A stretch of DNA of 47,989 bases, from positions 1-47,989 of the forward strand of contig JAFZQX010000024.1 in assembly GCA_017620205.1 (NCBI GenBank), read 5' to 3'. Positions 20,958 to 38,914 of this stretch are shown here, in pieces. Positions within the stretch are counted from its first letter, which is position 1. Each line of letters starts with the position of its first letter. The position numbers and the translations under genes were made by a program. Origin of the DNA: Clostridia bacterium (lineage in GTDB: Bacteria > Bacillota > Clostridia > UMGS1883 > UMGS1540). The notes under the pieces are model-generated. The model was given only the letters and a program-made list of their open reading frames with translations. It did no database searches and was not told where the DNA came from.

Positions 20958-20967
20958 GAAATCATCT

Positions 20968-20999
20968 TTGCTGCGGCCGCTTTTTGGTGACCGCAGCAA
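20968..20999 (+). terminator. Intergenic hairpin between the two lyase genes
   Basis: TTGCTGCGG at 20968-20976 pairs perfectly with CCGCAGCAA at 20991-20999 across a 14-base loop. The following TTTGATTTTTAA is a broken T-run, so partial termination or a processing or stability role is likely. The core resembles the hairpin at 512-541 after the third paralogue. Confidence 0.65.
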
Positions 21000-21033
21000 T
21001 TTGATTTTTAAGCAACTGCTCAGGAGGATAAAA

Positions 21034-24000
21034 ATGAAAAAAAAGCTTACAGCAATACTTGTGGCAACATTGATGATTTTGACAAATGCTGCTTTTTATA
21101 TCAGCGCTTCGGCAGAGGGGAATGTGCCGGCGCTTATTTATTCATGTCTTGATTTTGAAGAACAGACGGCTGGAGACAGTCCTTACGGCTTTACATTCGG
21201 AGCCGGAAACGGAAGCATGACGGTTATAAATGATTCGGGCAATAAAGCGGTCCGGCTTACATATGCGGGCGACGGCGATATACCTACCATGATACTGCCG
21301 CTTCAGTATGCGCCGATAGCGGAAAGCTTTGTTATAGGTTTCCGCTTTAAATGCGACAATTCTTCTGCAACGCAGCGCCTTATGGTCAGAACCGACGCGC
21401 TTTTGCCCCGCAATTCCCTTTATCTTGATTCGACGGGCGAAGCCTTTAACCTGATGTCTGTAACCGGCGGGTCTCTGCATGTAGGCACAAGCTCTACTAC
21501 GCGCAGGGTGTCAAATAATACGTGGTATGACCTTGAGATGGCGGTAAACCCCACAACAAAGCGTATGAACGTATATTTAAATAATTCTCTTATGGTAAGC
21601 AACGCGAATGTGACAAATGCGTCTTTCACAAACATTGCGTCTTTTACGTTCTTTGCGCCAAATAAATCGGCAGGCTGGAGTATAGACGATTTCAGGCTGT
21701 ATCTCGGCGGCAGACTTTCTTCATCGGATTTTTCCGAGCAGAAAACTCTTTATGAAAACAGCGAGATAATTCCTGATCATAAATTTGAGCTCGGAAGGCT
21801 TTATCAGTATGATAAATTTATGTTTGTAACGCTTTATAATAAATTTGTCGCAAGAGTTGACGGGGGCAGATACTATAAAAACAACGCATATCACACGATG
21901 GCGGCTGCCGTAACTGAAAGCGACGGCAGTATATATGTTCCCGCTGCCGATTTTGCCTCTGCTTTGGGCGGGTCGGCTTCGGTAGAAAACGGAACCGTAA
22001 CGGTTACAAAAGGCGGAAACAACACGCAGATAACGGACATTATCTATAATAACGAAATCGCGTGCGTGCCGCTTGACGGTTTAGCGGAATTTCTCGGCAT
22101 TTCCTATTACAGACAGGGGGATCTGCTTTCTTTCGGAGAGGCGCTTACATGTCCTTTCAGCCTCGGCGCTATGGGTAAAAACCAGCGCGGCTGCACAATG
22201 GAAGAAGAAGTGTTTGAAAGAATTGCAAATTCGCTTGTTTATGACCGTCCTTCAAAAGAGCGTGTTCTGCAGGCGTTTGAAACGAACAATCCGCAGCATG
22301 CATATCCGAGAATTCTTATAAATGATTTCAGCGAAATAATAAATAACAGAAGCAGAGATGCCGGGTATGACAGCACTGTTTCGGCACTTATAACAAGAGC
22401 AGATAACTATGTAAATCAAGATCCCGTAGCATATACGAAAAGCGACGGTCTGCGCGGCGATTTCGCGCAGCCCCTGGCGGACAGAGGCACATATCTCTCG
22501 TTTGCGTATAAGGTGACGGGAGATGTAAAATACAAAAACGCTTTGTGGAGCAACGTTGAGGCAGTTGCGGCGTTTCCTGATTTAAACCCCAATCATTTTT
22601 TGGACGTTGGTATCAGCGCAAACGGTATTAAATTTGCGTATGACTGGCTTTATGACGATTGGACGCCTCAGCAGAGACAGACGCTTGAAACTATAATGAT
22701 TGATAAAATACTCACGCCTGCGCTTGCCGCATACCGCAGCCCCTTGGGCACAAATGCAACGGGCTTTGCGTATAACACTGGCAATCAACCGATAATTATA
22801 AACTGCGGCGTTGCGGGATGCGCTCTGTCACTTATGGACAAATATCCTGATATGAGTTCGGAGATTGTTTCATGCGCGCTTCGAAGTGTTGAAACATGCC
22901 TTGAAGAATTCGCGCCCGACGGCGCATGGACCGAAGGCGTTGCGTATTGGCAGGACACAATGGGTTCGCTGCCTACGCTTGTTGATGTTTTCAGAACGGC
23001 GCTTGGTGACGACTACGGTCTTCTTGATACGCCCGGACTTTATAAATCGGCATATTTCCCCCTTGCAATGTACGGCGCGACGGGAACGTTTCCCGTGGGA
23101 GATGACGCAAGCGTAACTCCGTATCACCAGAGTCTTATGTGGTTTGCAAACGTATATAACGACAAGGCGCTTGCAACCATGAGAAAAAACGCGTTAAATG
23201 GCCCGGGCCTTACCGATGTTGTAAACTGGGTGTTTGATGCTGATCCCGAGCATACTACTATTGACGGCGACCACTATTTCAGAAAGATGGAAACCGCAAC
23301 TATGCGAACCGGCTGGAACTCAAACGACACAGCGGTTCTTTTGCACGGCGGACAAAACAACAGCAACCACGGACATATCGATAACGGAGCCTTCCAGATT
23401 GACATGCTCGGCGAGAGGTGGGCGTGCGAGGTGCCGAAAGAAGAATACAATATTCTTTATTACGGCTCGTATACATATGACCCGAGCGCCCCGTCATCGC
23501 CCTACGAACCGGAAGATTACTACCGATACAAAGCAGAGGGTCATAATACGGTTATAGCAAATCTCGGCGCAGAGAGGGCGGACCAGGCGCAGGACGCATT
23601 TGCGGAAATATTAGAATATACATCAAAACCCGATAAAGCTTATGCGATACTTGATATGACGCAGACAAACTGCTTGTATGAGGACGCAAAGCGCGGCCTT
23701 ATGCTTGACAAGGGAAATGACGCGGTAATTATCCAGGACGATTTTAAAGCGTCGGAGGCGGCGGAATTCTGGTGGTTTATGCACACCCAAGCAAATATTT
23801 CGCTCAGCGCTGACGGTAAAACCGCAATACTCAGCAAAAACGACAAGCGTATTTGGGTATCTATTATATCAAGCGGTAATGAAACATTTCAGATTATGGA
23901 CGCGGAACCGATGGAAGGTTACTATGACATTCCGCCGCTTCAAAGCTCAAACACGGGTTACAAAAAGCTTGCAGTAAGAGAAACGACGGATGAATTTAAG

Positions 24001-26121
24001 CTGACCGTCGCGGTTAAAGCGCTTTCGGGAAATGCCACACAGCCCGAAATAATACCCGTGAGCCGGCCGATGGAAACATGGGGAAATGACGAGGTAACAG
24101 TTGAAGACACAGATGATTATATAGTAAAGGGCATAGCGGGAGGCGACCGTTTTGCACTTTCAGAGGCTGTTGCATCGGCGCAAAAGGTATATGTGGTCGA
24201 CGCAGGCGCCGAGGGTATAACGCCGCAAGCGGCATCAAACCTTATTGCGGCATACTTTTATGTGGACGGCAGATTGGAGGAAACTGTATCCTCTGCGCCG
24301 TATTGTTATGAAGTTCCGGTCAGCGGCGGCAGTCATACGCTGGAAGTATTCGTCCGCAAAAATGACGGTATTTTATGTCGCGTCGGAACATACGGTTATT
24401 CGGCTGAAGTTTTGACGGATACGGCCGATTCCGTTATAAACAATTTTGACAGCGAAACACCCGGTTCTGCCGTTACATTCGGCAGTGAACGCTCCTTTGC
24501 CACGGGTGAAAGCTGTACATATGAGACGGCTCCGGGCGGAAGCACGGCTATAAGATTTTCATCAACGGCCGGCAGCGGCACGAGCTATATAATTACTGAC
24601 AGCGTTGCCGTTCCCGACAGTAAATTGGTAACGTTTGATTATGACACTTATGCGGCAAATTCAAGCGGCAATATGCTGACGCACCACTTGAGAAACGGCG
24701 TGCCGGGCTATACGTTCGGAACGCTCGGCAGCAGTAAGACAGCAAAGGATATGTGGCATCATGTGTCATATATATTTGACTTTGAAAGTCTTACGTTCAG
24801 AGGTTATCTTGACGGTTACGAAATGGAACGCGGAACACTAATTGGTGTCACGTCAAACAAAATACGTTTTTATATGACGCGTTATACGGATGCCGCAGTA
24901 GTTTATGTTGATAACTTTAAATATTGCGGAAAAACCGGTACACAGAGTGTTGCTGTTGAGCCTACCGAATATGCTGTAAAGGGTATCATAAACGGAGAGA
25001 GAATACCCGTATGCACGAAAGCTTCGTCGCTTAAAAGAACAATAAGTATAGTTGACTCTGCGGCATCCGGCAAAACCGTGACGGAAGCTGCAAATCTTTC
25101 AAAAGCGGAATTTTATATTGACGGCGTTTTAAAAGGTACGGTTACGGCGAGTCCGTGTCAGTGGGATATGCCTATAACAGATTTAAATCAGCATTCTCTG
25201 ACCGTAACTGCAACAGATATAGGCGGCAACACGCAAACCTTCGGACCTTTGACCTTTTCTGCCGTAAATATGGAGGACGATTCAACGTCTCATAAGCAGT
25301 ATTTTGACGGAATTGCAGGAAACAGCCTTACGCTTGCGGGTCTGCCGCGCATGAACGCGTCGTCTTCAAGCACAGAGAATCCGGAATACGCAGAAATCGC
25401 GGGAGGCACGGGCACAGTGCTTAAGCTGACGGGCACCAGCGGCAAAAGCTCAAACTATCAGACAGCTCAGGATATTCATGTTCCGTCAAACGGTATTGTA
25501 ACAATAGATTTGGATTTCTACTGCACACAAAGTAACGCAAACCACAAGCTTTACTTCCGTTCCAGAAACAGCAGCGGCTATAATATGAAAAACGGTGATC
25601 TGACACTGATAGACGGCTTGTCAATGGGCGATCTTACACCAAATACATGGCATCACATCTCATTTATATTTGACATTAGCAGCATGACATACGTATTCTT
25701 CCTGGACGGATATGAAATTGAGCGCGGCATAATGGATTCGCGCATAGCGGACAGAAATATATATTTCCAGATTGCAACGCAGAACTATGGAAGCTGTCAA
25801 TGGTATTTTGACAATATTGAGGTTTTGGCAAAATCCGCGGTATCAAAAGTTTCGGGAGATCTCGCAGATGAAGGAAACAACGCGGGAGTGCTTGTTTTAA
25901 ACAGTACGGCAGCGCCAAAGCAAATATACGTATACCATGCCGAGTATGTTGAAGACGAGCTTGTATACGTTTTTGCAGATAGCACCATTGTCGGAAAGGG
26001 CGGAATATGGCAGGGCAGCGTATCCGCTGTACCCGGGATAGGAGACAGCGCCTCAGTATACCTCTGGGACAGTGATTTGGTTCCGCTTTCGGGAAAAATC
26101 GTTAAACAAGGCATGGAATAA
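21034..26121 (+). CDS. Secreted heparinase II/III-type polysaccharide lyase, paralogue 2
   Basis: The ATG at 21034 follows AGGAGG at 21022-21027 and opens a typical signal peptide (MKKKLTAILVATLMI, ending near ISASA), giving 1,695 residues; an in-frame TTG at 20968 lies in the hairpin and is rejected. The domain order is the same as in the preceding gene along the whole length: LamG-like, copper-amine-oxidase-N-like, toroid, lyase beta-sandwich, then two Ig-plus-LamG pairs and the terminal module ending in VYLWDSDLVPLSG. The lyase motif NHGHIDNGAF places H779 and D783, and EGHNTVIAN places H837. Both copies thus retain the same active-site motifs, so a difference in chain-length or decoration preference is more likely than loss of function. 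It is transcribed with the first copy. Confidence 0.83.
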   Translation: MKKKLTAILVATLMILTNAAFYISASAEGNVPALIYSCLDFEEQTAGDSPYGFTFGAGNGSMTVINDSGNKAVRLTYAGDGDIPTMILPLQYAPIAESFVIGFRFKCDNSSATQRLMVRTDALLPRNSLYLDSTGEAFNLMSVTGGSLHVGTSSTTRRVSNNTWYDLEMAVNPTTKRMNVYLNNSLMVSNANVTNASFTNIASFTFFAPNKSAGWSIDDFRLYLGGRLSSSDFSEQKTLYENSEIIPDHKFELGRLYQYDKFMFVTLYNKFVARVDGGRYYKNNAYHTMAAAVTESDGSIYVPAADFASALGGSASVENGTVTVTKGGNNTQITDIIYNNEIACVPLDGLAEFLGISYYRQGDLLSFGEALTCPFSLGAMGKNQRGCTMEEEVFERIANSLVYDRPSKERVLQAFETNNPQHAYPRILINDFSEIINNRSRDAGYDSTVSALITRADNYVNQDPVAYTKSDGLRGDFAQPLADRGTYLSFAYKVTGDVKYKNALWSNVEAVAAFPDLNPNHFLDVGISANGIKFAYDWLYDDWTPQQRQTLETIMIDKILTPALAAYRSPLGTNATGFAYNTGNQPIIINCGVAGCALSLMDKYPDMSSEIVSCALRSVETCLEEFAPDGAWTEGVAYWQDTMGSLPTLVDVFRTALGDDYGLLDTPGLYKSAYFPLAMYGATGTFPVGDDASVTPYHQSLMWFANVYNDKALATMRKNALNGPGLTDVVNWVFDADPEHTTIDGDHYFRKMETATMRTGWNSNDTAVLLHGGQNNSNHGHIDNGAFQIDMLGERWACEVPKEEYNILYYGSYTYDPSAPSSPYEPEDYYRYKAEGHNTVIANLGAERADQAQDAFAEILEYTSKPDKAYAILDMTQTNCLYEDAKRGLMLDKGNDAVIIQDDFKASEAAEFWWFMHTQANISLSADGKTAILSKNDKRIWVSIISSGNETFQIMDAEPMEGYYDIPPLQSSNTGYKKLAVRETTDEFKLTVAVKALSGNATQPEIIPVSRPMETWGNDEVTVEDTDDYIVKGIAGGDRFALSEAVASAQKVYVVDAGAEGITPQAASNLIAAYFYVDGRLEETVSSAPYCYEVPVSGGSHTLEVFVRKNDGILCRVGTYGYSAEVLTDTADSVINNFDSETPGSAVTFGSERSFATGESCTYETAPGGSTAIRFSSTAGSGTSYIITDSVAVPDSKLVTFDYDTYAANSSGNMLTHHLRNGVPGYTFGTLGSSKTAKDMWHHVSYIFDFESLTFRGYLDGYEMERGTLIGVTSNKIRFYMTRYTDAAVVYVDNFKYCGKTGTQSVAVEPTEYAVKGIINGERIPVCTKASSLKRTISIVDSAASGKTVTEAANLSKAEFYIDGVLKGTVTASPCQWDMPITDLNQHSLTVTATDIGGNTQTFGPLTFSAVNMEDDSTSHKQYFDGIAGNSLTLAGLPRMNASSSSTENPEYAEIAGGTGTVLKLTGTSGKSSNYQTAQDIHVPSNGIVTIDLDFYCTQSNANHKLYFRSRNSSGYNMKNGDLTLIDGLSMGDLTPNTWHHISFIFDISSMTYVFFLDGYEIERGIMDSRIADRNIYFQIATQNYGSCQWYFDNIEVLAKSAVSKVSGDLADEGNNAGVLVLNSTAAPKQIYVYHAEYVEDELVYVFADSTIVGKGGIWQGSVSAVPGIGDSASVYLWDSDLVPLSGKIVKQGME
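22315..22448 (+). repeat. Near-identical DNA tract shared with the previous gene (copy 2)
   Basis: Partner of 17166-17299: 103 identical bases, one mismatch, then 30 identical bases. Past base 22448 the copies diverge again within about 25 bases. Confidence 0.9.
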
Positions 26122-26251: not shown

Positions 26252-26280
26252 TTGACTTTTTTGCGATTTTTTTGTATAAT
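26252..26280 (+). promoter_or_regulatory. Strong sigma-A-like promoter of the giant-protein operon
   Basis: TTGACT at 26252-26257 and TATAAT at 26275-26280 are 17 bases apart, close to the consensus on all three counts. The start of transcription should be near 26287, leaving a leader of about 97 bases before the ATG at 26384. Confidence 0.82.
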
Positions 26281-26303: not shown

Positions 26304-26349
26304 CAGCGGCGGTTGCCGGTGTGAAAATAACGGATACGGGGAGTATCCG
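26304..26349 (+). promoter_or_regulatory. Two consecutive stem-loops in the leader of the giant-protein operon
   Basis: CGGC-GGTT-GCCG at 26307-26318 is the first stem. The second is a perfect 7-bp stem, CGGATAC at 26331-26337 with GTATCCG at 26343-26349 around GGGGA. They lie between the promoter and the GGAGG at 26372-26376. No known riboswitch class is recognised; they may protect the 5' end or bind a regulator. Confidence 0.45.
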
Positions 26350-26383: not shown

Positions 26384-29300
26384 ATGCGCCTTAGAAAGAG
26401 AGCCCGGGCACTTTTAACGGCTGCGGCGGTTTTTTGCACTTTGCTGCTGCCCGTAATGCCCACAGGGGCAGAGACAACAAAACCAACAAAAATTGTCGTA
26501 ACGACAAAGGTTAAAAACGTTGCGTATGCCGGAACGGACAGCGACGTTATACTTGCGCTTTACGACAAAAACTCAAAGACAGAAAAGACCTATAAGCTTG
26601 ACAGAGCTTGGTGGTACAATGACTTTGAGAAAGGAGCCAAGGATACATACACGGTGGAAACCGAGTTCTATGCTTGGGAAATTTCCGACATCAGCATCCG
26701 CATAAAGGGTAAGGACGCCCTGCGTCTTGACTATGTTGACTGGGATATGACATGCAACGGTCAGCAGGCGCATGCGCACGTTATGGTAAATACGTGGCTG
26801 AGCAACAAGGAAAGCGAAAAGTCGGTAACTCTTGCAAGCGGCGCGTTTAAAAGAAACGTATCTGACGTAGGTAACTTTGCGTCCGCTTTTGAGGGAACAG
26901 AGTATTTTGCAACAAATGACACGACATCGGGCTCGCGCACGTTCCAGTGGAACTGCAGATCTACCGACCAGTACAGCTCAAACGTTGATCCCTTCACGCT
27001 GCCGCAGCCGCCCGAAATCACATATAACATAAGCGGTAAGGGCAAGGTAAACGGCGCAATAAACGACGCCGCGGCAAGCACGGAGATAAAAGACGCCGTA
27101 AAAGACGTTGTCTATAAAGAAAAGACAATAGGCTTTACGGTTGATAAGCAGAAGGTTTTGACACAGATGAAAGCAAAGGGCATATATAAGCTTTCAATCA
27201 CAACAAACCTTAAATATCCGTCTGATTCGACGAATATCACCAAAATAAGCTCCCAGAGCAGAACGTTTACTTTTATCAGACCCCAGTTTGTGCTCTCCGA
27301 TAAAGATACGGCAATAACAACAACGCCGTATACTGCAGGTATAGACAACTATTATTTCAACTCAACCGTCGGCACGGTAACTGCTAAAATTGCGGTGCTC
27401 TCAGATGGCACATACATGGCTAACTATAACGCAAACGATATAGCGAGAGATATATCGTTCGGTACGGCGCGCCTTTTCTACGGCAGAGGCTCAAATGACT
27501 TTGTAAACTTGGTTTCAAAATCAGTTTCGGGCAACACCGTATCGCTTAATTTTGATATGTCCTCCGTCCGCAGAAACGATGACAACACCGGTCTGCGACT
27601 GGAGCTTTCAAACGTTACTTCAAAATGTTACGGTCAGACATACGTTTTGTCCGGCGGCAATTACAGCAAGCTTTTCACAACGTTCAAAACGGATACGCTC
27701 CCGCCTGAAGTTTCGGCAACGGCTGCCGACGGCGGAAATATGTCGGGCGTATGGCGCAAGTCCATGACGGTTAATCCTTCCGTAAACGAAGAAGTTTATC
27801 CGAAGCTTTCGTCGTCAATCCCGTTTGAATCTTTGCCGTTTTATAAAAACGTATTCTCGGCAGAGCTTACGGGCCCCAATACCAATAAATCCAAAAACGT
27901 TGCCGCGGCGGGCGCGTCTGCTTTAACGCTTGAATGCGATAACAATATAGAGTCAAACGCATTTACGTTAAAGCTGACGGCGTATGACTTCGCAGGCAAC
28001 AAAACAGAGAAAGTATATAATAATATTTGTCTTGACCGCAAAGCGCCGTCTGTAAGCCTTTCCGAAAAGAAGGATGTTCAGCAGGCGGATCTTTCAAAGG
28101 CGGTTATGTATAAATTCTCGATGGAAGAACTTTCGGGAACGGGACGTCTGCACTACTGCCTGGTTCCAAAGGACTCCGAAACACCTGCGGTAAGTAACGA
28201 AACGGCGCAGAGTGGAACTATCGAAACGCTTATAAACAAATGGGCTTTTATAGATCAGGACGCTATAGACAGCTCTTCCGTTGTACTCAGAGTCGGGAAC
28301 AACGAAACGTTTGAAGGTACTTTGGTATACTTCGCGAAGGACGCGCTCGGAAACAAATCCGAAACCGTCAAGCAGCCCATATTTGTAAGCAACATTCCCG
28401 CTTCCGCGGATATAGTAATAGAAGAATATACATATCCCAAACAAAATTACAATATTTCCTTTACAAGCGGCGCGGACACAAGCGTATATTACAGATACGC
28501 AGGTATCGGAACGCGCTATAAGCTTTACGAAGCCGGTAAATCGAATGTAGGCTCGTCTTCACAGACGGACGATAGCGGCAACAGCGTATTATTAAACGGC
28601 AAACAGCTTCTTGAATTTAAAGCAGTAAATTCACAGTCCGGCAATACTATTTATTTCGAAGGCGCGAAGGGCAAGACTCTGCTCTTTGATAATACGCCTT
28701 CCGATATAACGATAGCGCAGGATAATTACGTATCCTCAAAAGCGGAGAGAACAATAAAGGTTAAAGCCTCAGACGTATCTCCCATAGTTGAGGCAAGCTT
28801 TAAGATACTTTCGGAGGATAAGAGCATAACGGTAATAGCTGATACTCCGCTTGAAATATTAAACGGCATTGTAAATGACAGCGCAAAAGTATCGGGCGTT
28901 GCAAACGGCAGATACATACCGGAAGTTACCGTAAAAGACGCAAACGGCAACATAACAACATCAGAAGGCAACACGTTTAACATCCGTTCGCAGAAGCCCG
29001 TGGCTGCGGCAACGGTTCTCGATGCACCGGAAAAAGACGGCGCTGCACTCATCTCCTCACACAGCTATGTGATCTCAATGGATGTTGACGAGGATTATAT
29101 CTGTCCCGGCGGCTCTGCACGCGAAGTTGTAAAATACCGCGCGTCTGCAGACGGCGTAAACTTCGGTCCCTGGACAGAAGCCGCTGACCTTGTAACAACC
29201 TCTGCGGGTTACTCGGCGCACGGAATTGAGATAGATACTCCTCTGCCGCTTACAGCCGGCATGAACAGTATTTATTTGCAGGTAATGTGTACGGAAAGCG

Positions 29301-32300
29301 GAAAAGACGTATCGGCTATGACAGAAACAGAGCCGTCCGTCTTAGTACTCGATCCCGTAAATATTTACCTTGACGCGGAAGGCCCCGAATATAATGTTAC
29401 ATATAATATTACAGAGCGTACAAAGGATCCCATAACGGCAACCGTTACGCTTAAAGACAATATATCAAACGTATTCAGCCTTACAAGCACAAGCCCCTCG
29501 GCAGTTGTAACGCCCGTCGAAGGCTCAAACGATACTTTTGATGTAGTAATATCGGAGCCCGGCGTTATAGTTGAGGCAAGGGATGAAGCGGGCAACGTAA
29601 CACAGATTATGCTTGAAGCGCAAAACCTTGACACGCAGGGACCCGAAATAGTATTTATTTCGATGGAACAGGCTCAAAGCGGCGCAAGAGATGACGCGGA
29701 AATTATGGTAGGCGTTTACCGCACAGAACCGTCAAGCGTTGTTTTCGCACCGGTTTTAGACGGCGAAACATTTGACGGAACGTATGACGCAGTTGAGATT
29801 AAAAATGTATCCGTGTCGCTTATGGAATACTTCGAAGAGGGCGGAGAATTACCGCTTGACAATTACACAAAGAACATAGTTTATACTTTATCATTTAAAG
29901 GTCTTACGGGTAATTACAAGCTCGGCGTTAAGGCATGCGACGATCTCGGAAACGAAACCATAGCCGTATCGGAAGACGTTGTCACAATGAAAGACGCAGC
30001 GCCTGCCGTAACGGAAGTTAAAGCTCCGAAAAAAGCGGTTGACTTTGCCGGCGCAAACTTAACCTTTAACGTTCCGGTATACGTTTTGCCGCAGTCTGAA
30101 ATGACAACCGAAGCCGAATACATGGAAAATGACCAAGGCGAGAATGTACTCGTCCGCACGGCAGACGAAATTAATAAAGACAAAGCGGTTCAGGAAGCGC
30201 TTATAAACGGCGTAAGCCAGACTATAAAATATAACTTCCCGAAAAACGCAACGGGCACATACACGCTCGTTGTCGCAGACGATGTAGGCAGAGCGTTTAA
30301 CGTAGAGTGCCATATAAACACGGAATTTTCGGAAGGCTATCCGCTTTCGTTTGATTTAAAACAGATAGTAATGACATCGGGCACAGATCAGGAAGGTGAA
30401 TACTATAGTTATGAAACCGTAACGACCGTCGGCGAAAACGATGTGGCGTATGTAGGCCTTGACGGGTCCGATGAGGATATCTTCAGGCAGTGTGCGGTAA
30501 GGCTTTATGTAACAAATCCCGACCCGACAGCAAATATCTATCTCTATCCGTGTCCGCTTGACGAAAACGGAAACACGATAGAAGAAAACGCATATACACC
30601 GCAGACGCCGTTTTCCCTTGCAGGCGTATCGGGAACAGACGCAGTACTGGCGCCCGACGGCAACTGGGCGTACAGGTCAATGGTAATGGATATTATGTCA
30701 TATGACTTTGAGACGTTTGACATAAGAGAATCCAAAATAAAGACCTTAAACATAGGCGCGAAGATATACGAGGAAGGCATGGACATTCCCGTTATCCAGA
30801 ACTATTCCGTTCCGTTTAAAAATATCATAACGGCAAAACCGGAAATCGTTTTAAATATCACGCCCACGGACGCTCCGGCAAGAGAGGTAACCGTAACGGT
30901 TGACGCAAACGACCAGAACGTTTCAATTAAAAACATACGTGCCGAAGAGATGTATACGGAGAGCGAAGAGTTCCAGAGACTTCTTGAAGAAAAAGAGGAA
31001 GAGCTTGACGAAGACGCTTACTGGCAGTGGTACGAAACGGCAATTGCGGAAGCCATGGCGGAAGCTAAAAAATATAACCTCCCTGTAACGGAAGACAACA
31101 AAACTTTGACGTTTACAATTGACCGCAACACAATGTATTTTGTTACCGCTACAAACGAGTACGGCTTATCGACATCCGAAATGTTTGAAGTAAGAAATAT
31201 AAATAACGATGAGCTTAAAGATTCGGATGTAGGAATTGAGTATAAAATCAAATCCGGCGGTGAATGGATAGACGATGACGGTGTAACATTTACAAACGAA
31301 GCAAAAGCCGTAATATACTATGAAGACCCCGCAAACAGACGCCGCATTTATGTAAAGAACAACGGCGGCAGCATAGAAAAAACACTCACGGCAGAGTATC
31401 CTACCTTTACATATATTTTAGGTGACGAATACGGATACGAAATAGAAAAATCGGCAGAGTTTTCAAGATTTGATACCACGGGACCCGAAATAGATTATTA
31501 TCTTGATAACACCGAAAAAACAAATCAGCCGGTAAAAATTACAATAACGGCAAATGACGCGGCAAGCGGCCTTTCCGCGGTTTCGCTTTCGGGAGGCGGC
31601 GCAGATATTCCGCTTACGGAAGAGGGCGGCTTCTATACAGCTGATATAGTTTCAAGCGGAAACTATATAATAAAGGCAGAAGACCTTACGGGCAATGTGT
31701 CTACAAAGGCTATAAGCGTTACAAATATCGATACAACGTTGCCTTCGATGAACTTCTCGCTTGACACATATACGTTTACGCGCAAAGGCGTAACGGCAAG
31801 CCTTACGTTCTCTAAAAACGGAGTTTCCATAACTCGCGTTGAACCCGTTGAAGGAAGCGCTATTACAACATCTGATTACACATGCGACTTCTCGGGTAAG
31901 AAAATCCGCTTCTCAAATAACGGAAGCTTGGCTGTACAGTTTGAGGACGAATACGGAAACGTAGGTACGGGCATCGTAACCGTTTCAAACATATTCACGG
32001 CTCCGCCCGCGCTTATAGCGGTTCCCGTTTTGGCGCCGGACGGTCAGAGCGTATCAGTTACGTTTGACAAGCAGAGAAACGAAGAAAACGTACCTATCGA
32101 TATGGTACGTGAACTTACCGAGCTTTACGTATTCTACGGCGGTACGGCATATAAGGTTGTTGACGATAACGGAACCCCCGCAACATTTATTTTAAGACAG
32201 AACGGCGACTATACGTTTACCGTTTACGATGAAGCGGGTTCTATGCAGTACATAACGCTTACGGTTACCGATATCGATTCCGAAACACCGCAGATAACGC

Positions 32301-33190
32301 AGATTTCCTGGGAATATGAATACCTTTCCGAAAACGGCGTAGGAGAATTTACGCAGAATACGGAAACGGGCTCGCGCACACCGGAAGCCGGAGAAATAGG
32401 CTACGTTATAGCAAGCGATAAAAACCCGAAGACAAACTTCCCGGTTGAAATAACGGTTACAACCGACAAACCCACGGCGTTTATGGGAAGCGTTGACGAG
32501 GAATATGCGACTGAGCATAAGCTTACATACAGAGAAAACGGCATGTATGTATTTAACCTCAAAAAGACGGATGACCTAAGCGTTTCATACGGCGTTGACG
32601 TTGAGCTTATCGATAAAACTCCGCCCACTATGGCGTTTGCCAATAACCCCGATATGATGTATCTGCAGGGCGTTACGGCGTATAACAAGGCAGATCTTTT
32701 AGACTGCAGTGCGTCCGATACCTTTGCAAACGTTACAACGGATCTTACGGACAAAATAACAATTGATTGGGGCGGCTTTAATCCCGACGACTTTAACGCA
32801 AACAAGTTTGATAAGAACAAACCCTATACGGTAACTTATACGGTTTACGACAGCGTTGGCAATAAGTCGGAACTCAAGCGTAAGATAACATTGCTCGGTA
32901 TAAACGATACCGTGGTTACGGTAAACGGCGAGATCCCGGACGCTAATTCCGATATCGTAACAGCTGCAGACAGTTTAGAGCTTGACTTTATAAACTTCAG
33001 CGGTACGTCATACGCTAAATACATAAAAGGCAATTACACATTCGGTCAGATGAAAACCATAGGCGATGTTATAAGTAAATCATCGGACGGCAAGTACAAT
33101 GTTTCCGGTCTTACGGAGGGATGGTATACGTTCTTCGTCCAGACGGATAAACGCGATTACTTTAACATTCATGTGTATATAAACAGATAA
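26384..33190 (+). CDS. Giant secreted Ig-like repeat protein
   Basis: The 2,268-residue protein has a signal peptide (MRLRKRARALLTAAAV, cleavage near PTGA) and GGAGGT before its ATG. It is a string of Ig-like beta-sandwich domains, recognisable from recurring junctions such as DTLPPEVSA, DRKAPSVSL, DTQGPEIVF, DTTGPEIDY, DTTLPSMNF, DSETPQITQ and DKTPPTMAF, each followed by strands like YTFTVYDEAG or YTVTYTVYDSVGNKS. This is the pattern of bacterial Ig-like surface and stalk proteins. There is no LPXTG motif, no S-layer homology domain and no catalytic motif I can identify. It might be a scaffold, adhesin or carrier for the next protein, which starts 13 bases after its stop. The role is unknown. 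Confidence 0.75.
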   Translation: MRLRKRARALLTAAAVFCTLLLPVMPTGAETTKPTKIVVTTKVKNVAYAGTDSDVILALYDKNSKTEKTYKLDRAWWYNDFEKGAKDTYTVETEFYAWEISDISIRIKGKDALRLDYVDWDMTCNGQQAHAHVMVNTWLSNKESEKSVTLASGAFKRNVSDVGNFASAFEGTEYFATNDTTSGSRTFQWNCRSTDQYSSNVDPFTLPQPPEITYNISGKGKVNGAINDAAASTEIKDAVKDVVYKEKTIGFTVDKQKVLTQMKAKGIYKLSITTNLKYPSDSTNITKISSQSRTFTFIRPQFVLSDKDTAITTTPYTAGIDNYYFNSTVGTVTAKIAVLSDGTYMANYNANDIARDISFGTARLFYGRGSNDFVNLVSKSVSGNTVSLNFDMSSVRRNDDNTGLRLELSNVTSKCYGQTYVLSGGNYSKLFTTFKTDTLPPEVSATAADGGNMSGVWRKSMTVNPSVNEEVYPKLSSSIPFESLPFYKNVFSAELTGPNTNKSKNVAAAGASALTLECDNNIESNAFTLKLTAYDFAGNKTEKVYNNICLDRKAPSVSLSEKKDVQQADLSKAVMYKFSMEELSGTGRLHYCLVPKDSETPAVSNETAQSGTIETLINKWAFIDQDAIDSSSVVLRVGNNETFEGTLVYFAKDALGNKSETVKQPIFVSNIPASADIVIEEYTYPKQNYNISFTSGADTSVYYRYAGIGTRYKLYEAGKSNVGSSSQTDDSGNSVLLNGKQLLEFKAVNSQSGNTIYFEGAKGKTLLFDNTPSDITIAQDNYVSSKAERTIKVKASDVSPIVEASFKILSEDKSITVIADTPLEILNGIVNDSAKVSGVANGRYIPEVTVKDANGNITTSEGNTFNIRSQKPVAAATVLDAPEKDGAALISSHSYVISMDVDEDYICPGGSAREVVKYRASADGVNFGPWTEAADLVTTSAGYSAHGIEIDTPLPLTAGMNSIYLQVMCTESGKDVSAMTETEPSVLVLDPVNIYLDAEGPEYNVTYNITERTKDPITATVTLKDNISNVFSLTSTSPSAVVTPVEGSNDTFDVVISEPGVIVEARDEAGNVTQIMLEAQNLDTQGPEIVFISMEQAQSGARDDAEIMVGVYRTEPSSVVFAPVLDGETFDGTYDAVEIKNVSVSLMEYFEEGGELPLDNYTKNIVYTLSFKGLTGNYKLGVKACDDLGNETIAVSEDVVTMKDAAPAVTEVKAPKKAVDFAGANLTFNVPVYVLPQSEMTTEAEYMENDQGENVLVRTADEINKDKAVQEALINGVSQTIKYNFPKNATGTYTLVVADDVGRAFNVECHINTEFSEGYPLSFDLKQIVMTSGTDQEGEYYSYETVTTVGENDVAYVGLDGSDEDIFRQCAVRLYVTNPDPTANIYLYPCPLDENGNTIEENAYTPQTPFSLAGVSGTDAVLAPDGNWAYRSMVMDIMSYDFETFDIRESKIKTLNIGAKIYEEGMDIPVIQNYSVPFKNIITAKPEIVLNITPTDAPAREVTVTVDANDQNVSIKNIRAEEMYTESEEFQRLLEEKEEELDEDAYWQWYETAIAEAMAEAKKYNLPVTEDNKTLTFTIDRNTMYFVTATNEYGLSTSEMFEVRNINNDELKDSDVGIEYKIKSGGEWIDDDGVTFTNEAKAVIYYEDPANRRRIYVKNNGGSIEKTLTAEYPTFTYILGDEYGYEIEKSAEFSRFDTTGPEIDYYLDNTEKTNQPVKITITANDAASGLSAVSLSGGGADIPLTEEGGFYTADIVSSGNYIIKAEDLTGNVSTKAISVTNIDTTLPSMNFSLDTYTFTRKGVTASLTFSKNGVSITRVEPVEGSAITTSDYTCDFSGKKIRFSNNGSLAVQFEDEYGNVGTGIVTVSNIFTAPPALIAVPVLAPDGQSVSVTFDKQRNEENVPIDMVRELTELYVFYGGTAYKVVDDNGTPATFILRQNGDYTFTVYDEAGSMQYITLTVTDIDSETPQITQISWEYEYLSENGVGEFTQNTETGSRTPEAGEIGYVIASDKNPKTNFPVEITVTTDKPTAFMGSVDEEYATEHKLTYRENGMYVFNLKKTDDLSVSYGVDVELIDKTPPTMAFANNPDMMYLQGVTAYNKADLLDCSASDTFANVTTDLTDKITIDWGGFNPDDFNANKFDKNKPYTVTYTVYDSVGNKSELKRKITLLGINDTVVTVNGEIPDANSDIVTAADSLELDFINFSGTSYAKYIKGNYTFGQMKTIGDVISKSSDGKYNVSGLTEGWYTFFVQTDKRDYFNIHVYINR

Positions 33191-33203
33191 GGAGGTGAGC
33201 CGC

Positions 33204-36200
33204 ATGACTAAAAGAATTACAGCGTTTTTATTATCACTATGTATGCTTATTGTTTTGCTGCCCACGGCGGCTTTGGCGGACAATGACGTATACACAATAG
33301 CAAACAGATACATAACATATTCAATTAACACCAAAACGGGCGGCTTCTCCGTTAAAACGGCAGACGGTCATCCCGATAAAAGCTACGATAACGATATGCC
33401 TCTTCTGTATAAGGCGGGGGAAGGCAGCGACGAAACTAGTTTCGTAACCGTCAGAATTGACGGAACGGACTATATCTTCGGCAGAGAATACGGCCTTTTC
33501 GGCATGAGCTCATCTCTTTCAACGCCCAGAATTTCAAACGCGGGCAGACTGATAGAGACAACATGGACCATAAAGGGCTATGAAGTTACGCAGAAGGTTG
33601 CACTCTCGCTTGATGAGGACAATAACTTAACAGGTAACCTCGGTATCTCTTACGAAGTTAAAAACACAAACGGCTCAGCAGGCAATGTTGGTATCAGAAT
33701 ACTCTATGACGCGGCTCTCGGCAACGATGTTGACGCGCCGTATGTTACGCCCGATGATAAGATAGAGCCTATTATTACTGAGCAGGAATTCTCCGGCGAC
33801 AGTATGCCCATACAGCTTCGTGCGGTAGACTCCGTTTCGGACGCCACAAAGGCTTCATATCTTCTCTTCTCGGGCTGGAATGTTGACTATTCTGCCGACA
33901 AGGTTATAGTAGGTCACTGGGCAAACCTTGCAAATACAAGATATGAATATGAGCCGGATACATACTGCGACTTTACAAACTATTCAAACGTTTACCGCGT
34001 GCCCGACAGCGCATACGCCATCTATTGGTCGGAGCAGGAGCTTCCTGCAGGCGGCACACGCACGGCAGAGCTTTTGTACGGCGTTGGTAACTTCTCGTCC
34101 ACAACGCAGGGCGGCAAAGCCGGCCTTGATATTATGGCGGAGCGCGTTCGCCTCAATGCGGCGGGCGACGGATACTTAAATAACGGCGAATTTAAAGTAA
34201 CCGTAAACTTTGACAACAGCGTTGACGGCTCCGTGCCGCTTGAGACGGCAAATGTAGCGCTCAAAGCGGAAGACGGTTTAACCGTTGTCAGTCAGGCTGA
34301 TTACACATACGGCGATATAAACGCAGGTCAGATTTACGAGATGGAATTTACCGTAAAGGCAGATCCGCAGTCGCAGATAACCTCGAAAAAGATAAACGTT
34401 GTGCTTTCAGGTATGGATAAGGAAGGAAACGTTATAGCTGAAACGGCTTCAAGATACGTGCTTTTGCCCGGTCTTACTTCGCTTCCGAATATTCAAATAA
34501 ACAGGGTAAGTCCTAAGATAGTTTATATTTTAGGCGATAAATTCGTAACGGTTTCGGGCGATCTTACGCCGCTGTCCGCTTTGCGCGGTACCGACGGATG
34601 GGACTTATACCTCGAGCACACAACAACGGACGAAAAAATACGTATAGAAAAGAAAAACATTACATTTGCCGAGGACTTCTCCTCACTTACCTTTAAGGTT
34701 TCGGACGATTTAACAGTCGGCAAATACAAGATGGTATTCTATTTCCGTGACAGCGAGCTTATATCAAACTACGGCGTAAACTCCATAACGGCTTCCGTAA
34801 CGCTCGAAACATCTGCGGATAAAAAATACGCGGTGCGTTCATACGGCGTTGTAGCGCTCGTACGTTATGAAAAAACGAAATATAAATTCGTTAAATTCGA
34901 TATCGAATCCGAATACCAGTCGTTTGTCGAAGGCAAAATTACGGCAGGCGGCATTAAACACGACTTTTCAACAAGCTATACAAAAGACGGCGATACGGCT
35001 AATGCCGAAATTCTCTTAACCGTCCGCGGTAAGATTAAAGAGCTTGAAAAAGACGGAAAGGTTTATTACAGCGCCGATACGCAGGAGGACAATGTTACAA
35101 TTAACAATATGCTCTCCTACAAGGGCGATACGCCGCTTATAATGGAAGAGAAAAACGGCACTTATATTGTAAAAGGCAACGGCGAAATAAAGGTTATAAA
35201 CTCTATCACCGTTTGGAAAAACGAATGGTCGTTTAAAGCAAGCGGCAGTGCGGCTTATTCCTTAAATGCCGAGTCTACAGACCTTTCAAACGCAAAGGAT
35301 TTAACCCTCTCGCTTGACGGCGCGGCATTTCTTATACAGTCTATCGGCGGCTTCCTTATTGACCTTAAGTTCGGCGTTATGACAGGTGATAACGATGACG
35401 GCGTTTTAACGCACGGCATAAGCTTCGGCGGTAAGATAAGCATACCGATCAAAGACCCGTCGCAGAAGAAGGACGATCCGAAAACATCCGGCGGTCAGGA
35501 CGATGACGACGACTATTCCGAGGACATGTCAATGATGTTTGCGGAAAATGACAGCGATAAGTATACGACAGCCGCAAAGACAAACAAGAGCGATTTTAAA
35601 AAGGACACAAACTTTTCGGACGGCAACCTCTCGGCTGAAATAGAAAGCATTCTCTACGGCGAAAAGACGGAGAAGGTTGACGGATATACAAAGGTAACGG
35701 GCACGGGCTTTGTAGGAATCAATACCACAATTTCTTTGGGACTTCCCGAAGATATCCTCGGCAAGTTTATCGAAAACGCTCCGGGCGTTTACGCGTCTGT
35801 TACGATTAACACAATAGATAACTACTACGAGCTTTCAGCAGGCCTTAAGATCAAGGTTATAGAATGCGAAGGTACTTTGGCATTTAAGCAGGTTACGGTT
35901 AAAAACAAAGACGTTGTAGTTCCCGATAAAATTGAATTTTATATACGCGACGGTCTTAAAATACCGCTTGCGCCCCCGCTGTTTATAACAGGCCTCGGCG
36001 GCGGCATAAACGGCCTTGCCGATACTATCGGCGGTGATTTTGACCGTCTGCCGCCTATAACGCTTCTGCTCTTTACAAGACTTGAGCTTATAGAAACGAT
36101 GATAGGCGACTTTAACGCGGCTATAAGCCTTTCGGGCATAGACCTTAAGGGTGATATGAAATTTAAAGAGGATAAAAAGGGCACGGTGTTTAATTTAGAG

Positions 36201-38873
36201 CTCGGAATATCCGCGCGCTGGATAGACCCGTGGCACCTGAGCGCATACGGAAAGGTAAGCGTTATAGACGGCCTTATTAAAGGAACAGTCGCACTTATCA
36301 TAGCAGATAACCTCTTCTACGGTTACGGCTGCGTTGCAGTATGCATACCGGACAGCGTACCGGTTTTGGGTGGCAAGGAGCTTGCCCAGCTTGAAGCCGC
36401 GGTTTCAAATACGTTTATCGGTACAAATATTAAGATCATTGGCATTAAGTTTGGTGTAATCTATTACTGGAGTGGTGAGTTTAATTACGGCACGGGCATA
36501 GATTTGGCACCGCCCATGCTTATGAGCACGCCGGAAGATAACGGCAGCGCGGATACCGATAAAGAATATACCGCTATGTACGGCACAAATATTCATAAGC
36601 TTTCGTCAACGAAGGTAGGACGTCCGGTTCTTTTGGCAGACGGTATTTCAAGCGTTACCAAAAACTTTAATCCCGAAACGGAAGACGCTCTGCTTATAGA
36701 AGTTCCGCTTGAAGGCACTATAATGCCCGATATCAGCGCGGTAACTCTTACAGACCCCGACGGCGGCAATATTCCGCTTTATGCCGATGACGGCAACGGC
36801 GGCGGAAACTTCCTTGCGCAGTCAAGAGATGACGGAAACTTTATCTATATTTCGATAACGGATGACAGTCAGCTTAAAGCAGGCGACTGGACGGTTACCG
36901 TAAACAGCGAATACAGCAGAGTAAAAGACTTTAGCATCTACGGTGCGGATGATATCCCCGAAATTACTTCAACCTCGGTTTCAAACCGCACGGACGATAC
37001 ATCGCGTGATTTCACAGTCACATGGGAAAACTCAGGCACATACGAGGGCGGCACTGTTGATATTTACGTAACAGATAACCCCAATGCCATAGAAGAAGCA
37101 AAAGCTACGCAGACGGGCGTTAAAGACGCGTTCGGCACAAGTGTTGCGCACCTTGATTATACGGGTCAAAACAGCGCGCAGGTTACGCTTCCCGAAAGCT
37201 TCCCAAGCGGCGACTACTATGTAGTTACGATGATATCTTCTGAGAAATACGGCATTTCGGCAAAAATGAGCAGTTCTACCTTTAAGTTTACAAACAACGC
37301 CCTGCCGAATCCCATAAAGAGTGCGGAACTTTACTACGCGGGCAATAACGAGCTTTGCGTTCGCGTTGAGGACGCGGATACGGTAGATTATACCGATTAC
37401 CTTGTAAACATTCTGGCAGAGGACGGCACGGTAGTTCCGAATTCCTTCGCACAGATAGGCGTAGGCGACGATATAATTGTCGGCAAGAGCGCGGATCTTC
37501 AGAAAGGCAAGGCATACCGCGTAGAAATATCAACGCTGAACGAAACAGATGACGGCGGCTTCTACTACGGCACGGAAAGAGTACTTTCAAACGAATTTAC
37601 AATTCCCGACACGCCGATGCCGGTACTCTTGTCGGTTGAAACAAACGTAAAAGACGGTATGCTTTCAACAAACGAAATTACGGCTACATATAAGTTTAGC
37701 GCACCCGTTTATATGCGCGCAACCGTAAACGGAGTTGACACTCCCACGGGTGATACAAATGAGTTTAAAGACACCTGGACATATACAGATACGCTTGAAG
37801 ACGGCGAATATGTAATAGACTTTAAGGCTTATAATAAGTCAAAAGACTATGTAACCGGTGAAGACTTTGAAGCAGTTCCAAACGCCATTATAGGCGTAAC
37901 CGTTGACTCAACCGCGCCGACCTTAACGCTCGGTCAGGAAATGCGCCAAACAGAAGATAACGGCTCTGCACCATTCGGCACAAACGTTGTCCGCGCATCG
38001 GCAGACGGCAGCTATTTGATAAGCGGTCACACCGAAAGCAACATAACGCTTACTGCGGACGGCTCTGAAGATGGTATTACAGTAGGAGCTGACAATATCT
38101 TTACGCTTACGGGCACAATAGAAAAAGGTATGATGAAAAAGGAAGTTGAGCTTAAGGCAACAGACGCCGCGGGCAACACATCGTACTTAACAGTTACCGT
38201 CCTGCCCGATACAACAGCTTTTACAGAAATCCGCATTAAATCCGGCGGCGCGGATATAGCGCAAAACGATGAGGGAGAAAAAGTAGTTGAGCTTATGCGC
38301 TTTGACGGCATAGACCTTGAGGTTTACGGCGTTTTGGAAGACGGAACTGAAGTTCGCGTTGACCCGTCAGACGTAACTTGGACGGTACTCGGCGAGAAGA
38401 ATATAGTATCTCTCGGCGATACGGGCGCTTTGGCGCTCCGCAACGGCGAAACTGCCGTAAAAGCAAACGTAGGCTCGGCGGTTCTCGAAGACGGCGCAAA
38501 TATCTCAACAGGTAAAGAAGACTATGTAATCTTTGAGGTTAAAGGCATAAACGGCACACCTATGGATATAGAGCCCGATTATGCTGATATCATAGACATA
38601 ATAAGCACAAAAGAAGAAAGCGGCACAAGACTTACCGTAGTTCCCAAAGAGGGATATGACGGCGAACTTCCGCTTGTTATGGTTTACACCGCGATATTTG
38701 ACGAAACCGGCACAAAGCTTCTCGATATCAAAGCGAAAGAGACAAATCTTGATAATTCTATCTTTGTAGACAGACCGAAATCTTCGCCCTATAAGATATT
38801 CATCTGGAGCGATAAGCCTGTTACAAAAGTAATAACGGAACAAACAACGGGCGCAAATAAACTCTTCCCGTAA
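33204..38873 (+). CDS. Giant secreted beta-rich protein of unknown function
   Basis: The ATG at 33204 follows GGAGGTG (33191-33197) and opens a clear signal peptide (MTKRITAFLLSLCMLIVLLP, cleavage near AALA); the GTG at 33195 inside the ribosome site is rejected. The 1,889 residues read as: an N-terminal beta domain (about 28-300), Ig/IPT-like domains (about 300-525), a long unrecognised beta-rich region (about 530-1120) interrupted by an acidic linker (QDDDDDYSED), FnIII/Ig-like domains, a Big_2-like domain (about 1665-1770), and a C-terminal module ending PYKIFIWSD that resembles the tails of the lyases. No anchor motif was seen. Tight coupling to the Ig-repeat protein suggests one exported complex. 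No enzymatic function can be assigned. Confidence 0.7.
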   Translation: MTKRITAFLLSLCMLIVLLPTAALADNDVYTIANRYITYSINTKTGGFSVKTADGHPDKSYDNDMPLLYKAGEGSDETSFVTVRIDGTDYIFGREYGLFGMSSSLSTPRISNAGRLIETTWTIKGYEVTQKVALSLDEDNNLTGNLGISYEVKNTNGSAGNVGIRILYDAALGNDVDAPYVTPDDKIEPIITEQEFSGDSMPIQLRAVDSVSDATKASYLLFSGWNVDYSADKVIVGHWANLANTRYEYEPDTYCDFTNYSNVYRVPDSAYAIYWSEQELPAGGTRTAELLYGVGNFSSTTQGGKAGLDIMAERVRLNAAGDGYLNNGEFKVTVNFDNSVDGSVPLETANVALKAEDGLTVVSQADYTYGDINAGQIYEMEFTVKADPQSQITSKKINVVLSGMDKEGNVIAETASRYVLLPGLTSLPNIQINRVSPKIVYILGDKFVTVSGDLTPLSALRGTDGWDLYLEHTTTDEKIRIEKKNITFAEDFSSLTFKVSDDLTVGKYKMVFYFRDSELISNYGVNSITASVTLETSADKKYAVRSYGVVALVRYEKTKYKFVKFDIESEYQSFVEGKITAGGIKHDFSTSYTKDGDTANAEILLTVRGKIKELEKDGKVYYSADTQEDNVTINNMLSYKGDTPLIMEEKNGTYIVKGNGEIKVINSITVWKNEWSFKASGSAAYSLNAESTDLSNAKDLTLSLDGAAFLIQSIGGFLIDLKFGVMTGDNDDGVLTHGISFGGKISIPIKDPSQKKDDPKTSGGQDDDDDYSEDMSMMFAENDSDKYTTAAKTNKSDFKKDTNFSDGNLSAEIESILYGEKTEKVDGYTKVTGTGFVGINTTISLGLPEDILGKFIENAPGVYASVTINTIDNYYELSAGLKIKVIECEGTLAFKQVTVKNKDVVVPDKIEFYIRDGLKIPLAPPLFITGLGGGINGLADTIGGDFDRLPPITLLLFTRLELIETMIGDFNAAISLSGIDLKGDMKFKEDKKGTVFNLELGISARWIDPWHLSAYGKVSVIDGLIKGTVALIIADNLFYGYGCVAVCIPDSVPVLGGKELAQLEAAVSNTFIGTNIKIIGIKFGVIYYWSGEFNYGTGIDLAPPMLMSTPEDNGSADTDKEYTAMYGTNIHKLSSTKVGRPVLLADGISSVTKNFNPETEDALLIEVPLEGTIMPDISAVTLTDPDGGNIPLYADDGNGGGNFLAQSRDDGNFIYISITDDSQLKAGDWTVTVNSEYSRVKDFSIYGADDIPEITSTSVSNRTDDTSRDFTVTWENSGTYEGGTVDIYVTDNPNAIEEAKATQTGVKDAFGTSVAHLDYTGQNSAQVTLPESFPSGDYYVVTMISSEKYGISAKMSSSTFKFTNNALPNPIKSAELYYAGNNELCVRVEDADTVDYTDYLVNILAEDGTVVPNSFAQIGVGDDIIVGKSADLQKGKAYRVEISTLNETDDGGFYYGTERVLSNEFTIPDTPMPVLLSVETNVKDGMLSTNEITATYKFSAPVYMRATVNGVDTPTGDTNEFKDTWTYTDTLEDGEYVIDFKAYNKSKDYVTGEDFEAVPNAIIGVTVDSTAPTLTLGQEMRQTEDNGSAPFGTNVVRASADGSYLISGHTESNITLTADGSEDGITVGADNIFTLTGTIEKGMMKKEVELKATDAAGNTSYLTVTVLPDTTAFTEIRIKSGGADIAQNDEGEKVVELMRFDGIDLEVYGVLEDGTEVRVDPSDVTWTVLGEKNIVSLGDTGALALRNGETAVKANVGSAVLEDGANISTGKEDYVIFEVKGINGTPMDIEPDYADIIDIISTKEESGTRLTVVPKEGYDGELPLVMVYTAIFDETGTKLLDIKAKETNLDNSIFVDRPKSSPYKIFIWSDKPVTKVITEQTTGANKLFP

Positions 38874-38884
38874 TAAAACAAAAA

Positions 38885-38914
38885 GAGGCGGTCAGACTAT
38901 TGTCTGACCGCCTC
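38885..38914. terminator. Bidirectional terminator between convergent operons
   Basis: A perfect 13-bp stem (GAGGCGGTCAGAC at 38885-38897, complement at 38902-38914) closes a TATT loop. On the minus strand it is followed by CTTTTTGTTTTATTAC, an excellent T-run for the DUF262 operon. On the plus strand the tail AGAATTTCTG is weaker. It sits 11 bases after the stop of the giant-protein gene. Confidence 0.85.

Follow-up and report, generated by a model that had tools for sequence, protein, structure and literature searches.

Two adjacent genes for giant exported proteins, P1 and P2, in a 47,989-nucleotide stretch of DNA from a Clostridia bacterium (contig JAFZQX010000024.1, hereafter the window) have, in our judgement, an even chance of being one inherited unit for a two-protein cell-surface assembly, in which P2 would form the base and P1 a docked fibre. 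The pair is characterised by strict adjacency and order of the genes, a short gap between them, co-divergence, signal peptides, a wall anchor found on P2 only and a conserved C-terminal domain of P1 (P1C) that is exclusive to the pair. The positions of the features discussed below are collected in Table 1.

Table 1. Features of the P1/P2 pair in the window, and of neighbouring genes at related loci
Feature	Coordinates	Strand	Description and basis
Sigma-70-type promoter match, TTGACT-N17-TATAAT	26252..26280	+	11/12; consensus match only
7-bp perfect dyad CGGATAC-GGGGA-GTATCCG in the 5' leader	26331..26349	.	Possible operator or hairpin
P1	26384..33190	+	2268 aa, ATG start; Ig-repeat, exported, signal peptide, without anchor; ORF, Pfam, sequence inspection
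PLAT/LH2-like domain of P1, residues 40-145	26501..26818	+	Pfam PF01477, 8e-9
P1C, conserved C-terminal domain of P1, residues 2163-2267	32870..33184	+	Alignment; motif Y..G..T.GQMK...GWYTF.VQTDKRD.F
Intergenic gap, 13 bases, with Shine-Dalgarno AGGAGGTG	33190..33203	+	Every pair has a short gap or an overlap
P2	33204..38873	+	1889 aa, exported; ORF; single copy in its own genome
P2N, predicted N-terminal super-beta-sandwich, residues 32-318	33297..34157	+	HMM 410 bits; AF2 model and VIA-align
mid1, conserved beta-rich region, residues 430-755	34491..35468	+	Without Pfam match
Acidic linker of low conservation, residues 756-802	35469..35609	+	Alignment
mid2, hydrophobic beta-meander, residues 804-1109	35613..36530	+	GRAVY +0.3; GLGGG/LPP motifs; model pLDDT only 45
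Ig-like region of P2, approx. residues 1130-1780	36591..38543	+	NCBIfam Ca_tandemer below cut-off
Divergent P2 C-terminus, residues 1786-1889	38559..38870	+	SLH domains occupy this place in orthologues
13-bp stem-loop between convergent genes	38885..38914	.	T-run serves the minus-strand gene
Protease neighbours of the pair	L148:7586-9535, L141:245-1903, L128:14367-15779, L143:2640-3437, L136:16084-16821		
Small upstream gene family, 96-117 aa	L041:19612-19932, L124:1039-1329, L128:167-520		

The host genome (46 contigs, 2.34 Mb in total) contains a single copy of the pair. The coordinates of the open reading frames agree with the original prediction, made from the letters of the sequence alone, in the lengths of both proteins, the 13-base gap and the full ribosome site. 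The Shine-Dalgarno sequence overlaps the final base of the P1 stop codon (P1 stop at 33190, P2 ATG at 33204), and P2 would comprise 1892 residues if an upstream GTG were used instead of the ATG following AGGAGGTG. Signal peptides had been proposed for both proteins, and signal-peptide-like N-termini were indeed read from the sequences by inspection, that of P2 being a hydrophobic stretch ending ALA-DN. The proposed near-consensus promoter was also recovered and is the best among 26 sites in the region; shuffled sequences yield a mean of 24.5 sites, so that the case for this promoter lies in the quality and the position of the match. An Rfam search with the dyad of the 5' leader gave no match.

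P2 relatives were identified in 28 of the 391 genomes of the class (about 7%, sporadically distributed) and in 7 genomes of a phylum-wide sample of 398, among them complete genomes of 6.5 Mb that do not belong to the class. A scan of the genome contigs with a single protein gave no relatives, and closer alignment gave five loci; no relative was found in the collections of viral contigs, plasmids and phages searched. P1 with P1C lies directly upstream of P2, on the same strand, at all 27 P2 loci having readable upstream DNA (23 genomes plus two named assemblies), the P1C match being weak at three of these (16, 19 and 25 bits). Searched for independently, P1C was matched at 19 places in 17 of the 391 class genomes, all of them at P2 loci, adjacency in one genome (G375) being judged from contig positions only. 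The gene-neighbourhood survey thus finds that P1 and P2 do not occur independently, in keeping with the two-gene unit originally proposed. The two genes either overlap or are separated by up to about 70 bases, most pairs having a ribosome site, and the distance matrices of the two proteins correlate (mirror-tree r = 0.876, permutation maximum 0.272, n = 24 pairs). One genome (G073) carries two divergent pairs, both complete.

Disrupted copies were also observed. In G079 (L049:7790-11788) the reading frame of a P1-like Ig region continues into a truncated P2N; P1C and a signal peptide are both missing, and this is an apparent deletion fusion of a P1/P2 pair. The P2 frame is broken in a poly-aspartate linker in G046 (L042:8076-8143), and in G013 (L041) a stop cuts P2 off after residue 387.

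P1C is the best-conserved part of P1, the remainder of which diverges widely in the alignment. The Ig-like repeats of P1 mostly fall below the Pfam cut-offs, with sub-threshold Ig matches near residue 2145. The PLAT domain passes its gathering score (36.7 versus 23 bits) and is above the Pfam cut-off in the window's P1 only, among ten aligned members; a relative (G270) has a similar P1 N-terminus under the cut-off (9e-4). Neither P1 nor P2 matched the PHROGs phage families or the PADLOC defence families, and their NCBIfam matches were all sub-threshold. The C-termini of both, as read from the sequence, lack LPXTG, a hydrophobic stretch and a positive tail, and no enzymatic or binding residues were identified.

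The window's P2 gave no Pfam match at E<=1 and no credible match in a phmmer search of PDB, and NCBIfam returned only a sub-threshold Ca_tandemer repeat at residues 1568-1663 (numbering of the GTG form). An AF2 run on residues 28-1144, with shallow alignments, had an overall pLDDT of 47 and was usable at the N-terminus only, where pLDDT is about 30-87. The model of residues 28-297 aligns to GH94 phosphorylases (VIA-align Z 12-13.8, 205-227 aligned residues); galactose-mutarotase-like proteins and polysaccharide lyases rank slightly lower, and the model of residues ~304-422 matches Ig-like domains of transglutaminases and complement C3. P2N is therefore predicted, with moderate confidence, to be a super-sandwich of the GH94/galactose-mutarotase type. 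Unlike the GH94 phosphorylases, to which its identity is only ~10%, P2 lacks the defining (alpha/alpha)6 catalytic barrel, the rest of the protein being beta; there is no helical domain in the model and no Pfam GH domain. Since the catalytic barrel is missing, P2N is likely to be a binding or structural relative of these enzymes.

The central 500-600 residues of P2 had been described as not assignable to any family. P2 as a whole is not entirely unassignable, given residues 28-297 as above, but the description stands for the centre, where Pfam, NCBIfam and PDB sequence searches are blank and where no member of an 11-sequence family alignment carries a Pfam family. Both mid1 and mid2 are conserved throughout the P2 family, as judged by alignment and profiles. 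The mean GRAVY of mid2 is 0.0 to +0.5, positive in nearly all full P2 relatives, the rest of P2 being negative. DUF6603 (PF20248), considered as an identity for mid2, had no Pfam match in the P2 relatives or in 199 genomes; the control gave no match either. Half of mid2 is also present in other large proteins (L050-L054, L146), most with SLH and without a P1C match, and by this distribution appears to be a mobile domain that Pfam does not list.

By Pfam, 6 of the 11 aligned P2 proteins terminate in SLH domains, as do most complete P2s by a local SLH model; several of the others are truncated at a contig end or have a broken frame. In the window's P2, SLH (PF00395) is absent, either by Pfam at E<=1 or by the local model, and so is a dockerin repeat, by Pfam. 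The absence of a visible wall anchor, pointed out in the original prediction, thus holds for the window's copy and not for most orthologues, which carry SLH (one of the relatives a dockerin). The host genome has 110 SLH matches, so that SLH anchoring operates in this organism and the loss belongs to the window's P2 gene rather than to its host. This P2 has lost its wall anchor, with an unrelated C-terminus in its place that weakly matches a 525-aa ORF elsewhere in the same genome (E 1e-4). Within the window, phmmer gave no support to the idea that this C-terminus and the ends of the neighbouring lyases are one module.

With its signal peptide, large modular ectodomain and C-terminal SLH in most orthologues, P2 resembles SLH surface proteins such as Sap (PDB 3pyw), and SLH-anchored modular giants are already known as a kind. 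The window's P2 differs from these in lacking SLH, and the P2N-mid1-mid2 core with its obligatory P1 partner has no counterpart among the SLH families described in the libraries used, with no sequence match to families in Pfam, NCBIfam, PHROGs, PADLOC or PDB; a description of such a pair was not found in the open-access library searched. The sole relative with a dockerin (G725) has a P2 ending in Dockerin_1 (2e-9), and the next gene in the operon, which overlaps P2 by 4 bases, bears three SLH repeats (L141:14814-16472), as if the P2 anchor had been split off into a separate gene. This arrangement recalls cellulosome-type dockerin anchoring, but no Pfam cohesin profile matches that SLH gene and the dockerin occurs in one relative only; a cohesin-dockerin link in G725 is a guess.

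Proteases of three unrelated families (clostripain, SLH-subtilase and trypsin-like) neighbour the pair in seven loci; none is present beside the window's pair. Clostripain precedes P1 by 9 bases in G073:C3 and is also upstream in G725, there with an SLH trace. SLH-bearing subtilases lie downstream of the pair in G036, G060 and G289 (one representative identified by Pfam, the other two assigned by near-identical sequence), and trypsin-like proteases upstream in G220 and G764. The upstream regulators differ among the loci and include TetR-like, MalT/LuxR-like and response regulators. At least three relatives have a member of the small gene family of Table 1, without Pfam match, immediately before P1, and in G411 a gene for an 81-aa protein with a phage tail Collar domain (L139:2679-2924) precedes P1 by 72 bases.

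In the assembly that we propose, P2 at the cell wall would be the normally anchored base, and P1, a long Ig rod without an anchor of its own, would be tethered to it by docking of P1C, most plausibly onto P2N or the central region. What speaks most strongly for such docking is that P1C is better conserved than any other part of the divergent P1 and that the searches located it nowhere but beside P2. The N-terminus of P1, with PLAT in the window's copy, may project off the cell for adhesion or for glycan or lipid capture, this job being the weakest step of the proposal, and some lineages may use a co-encoded protease to trim the complex. In the window, where the anchor is replaced, the complex would be either shed or retained by another route. 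The two-component exported structure originally suggested is thus borne out as far as the pairing goes (the 27 loci, the exclusivity of P1C and the co-divergence), and its structural part stays conditional. Several observations count against the assembly: the window's P2 is without the anchor that the model requires, PLAT is above the cut-off in one P1 only, protease neighbours are found at only seven loci, and inheritance, whether vertical or jointly horizontal, would also be expected to produce co-divergence in proteins that do not touch. If the proposal is true, the pair would be an unnamed, widely scattered two-gene surface system of gut Clostridia and other Bacillota, whose large central domain and partner-specific C-terminal domain are missing from current family libraries. 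Such pairs would make the surface partner predictable from sequence, and P1C would offer a direct handle on how unanchored giant proteins stay on Gram-positive cells.

In one alternative reading, the two exported proteins are only inherited jointly, kept together by co-regulation, and act separately. Physical contact between P1 and P2 is a supposition, which favours this reading; however, the conservation of a pair-exclusive P1C amid a divergent P1 suggests a partner-specific constraint, and we regard separate action as very unlikely. A structural surface-coat element, S-layer-associated or a two-subunit coat without a specific ligand, would fit the large size of the proteins, the SLH anchors of the relatives and the Ig arrays, which are reported to build S-layers in Deinococcus (PMC10120038). 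The sporadic occurrence (28/391), single copy and varied regulators suggest instead a conditional accessory factor, making a coat unlikely. Equally improbable is that the pair belongs to the polysaccharide-utilisation locus upstream of P1 in the window and binds its glycan. That locus comprises ABC sugar permeases, GH88/GH95/GH42M-type enzymes, an AXE1 esterase and two Hepar_II_III lyases, and P2N has a predicted fold of carbohydrate-enzyme type; yet the pair has its own promoter, 263 bases downstream of the lyase gene, and the other loci inspected show varied regulators and proteases and no comparable polysaccharide locus.

The hydrophobic mid2 raises the further alternative that P2 is a lipid-contacting machine, its mid2 being a large amphipathic beta-sheet or barrel for lipid binding or membrane insertion, with P1 as a targeting arm possibly released by a protease. 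PLAT is a lipid- or membrane-binding fold, and its presence in P1 is consistent with this, as is the AF2 model of mid2 alone, a meander of about 18 long antiparallel strands (pLDDT 44.7), for which ApoB, BamA, FhaC, porins and VDAC are the nearest structures (Z 8-10.5, from a model of pLDDT 45). However, long beta-meanders of any kind draw barrel matches, Foldseek with this model gave no match below 1e-3, there is no sequence similarity to ApoB or outer-membrane barrels, the beta alternation of mid2 is no stronger than in the other beta-rich parts of P2, and the Gram-positive host has no outer membrane. The model is too poor for fold assignment and cannot establish kinship to ApoB or membrane barrels. 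We give the lipid reading little chance. Its most elaborate form, a two-protein surface machine of Bacillota with mid2 as lipid carrier or pore and P1 as a protease-controlled arm docked via P1C, is less probable still.

The genes flanking the pair in the window have features of their own. The polysaccharide-utilisation locus closes with adjacent giant heparinase II/III-type lyases of 1700 and 1717 aa (15855-26121), which are paralogue-like and carry Laminin_G_3, Big_7 and Cu_amine_oxidN1-like domains. On the other side, two minus-strand GmrSD-type genes (PF03235; 39107-43101) converge on the 3' end of P2, by its replaced C-terminus, the second of them also having PF07510 and PADLOC HEC-06/SspE-like matches.
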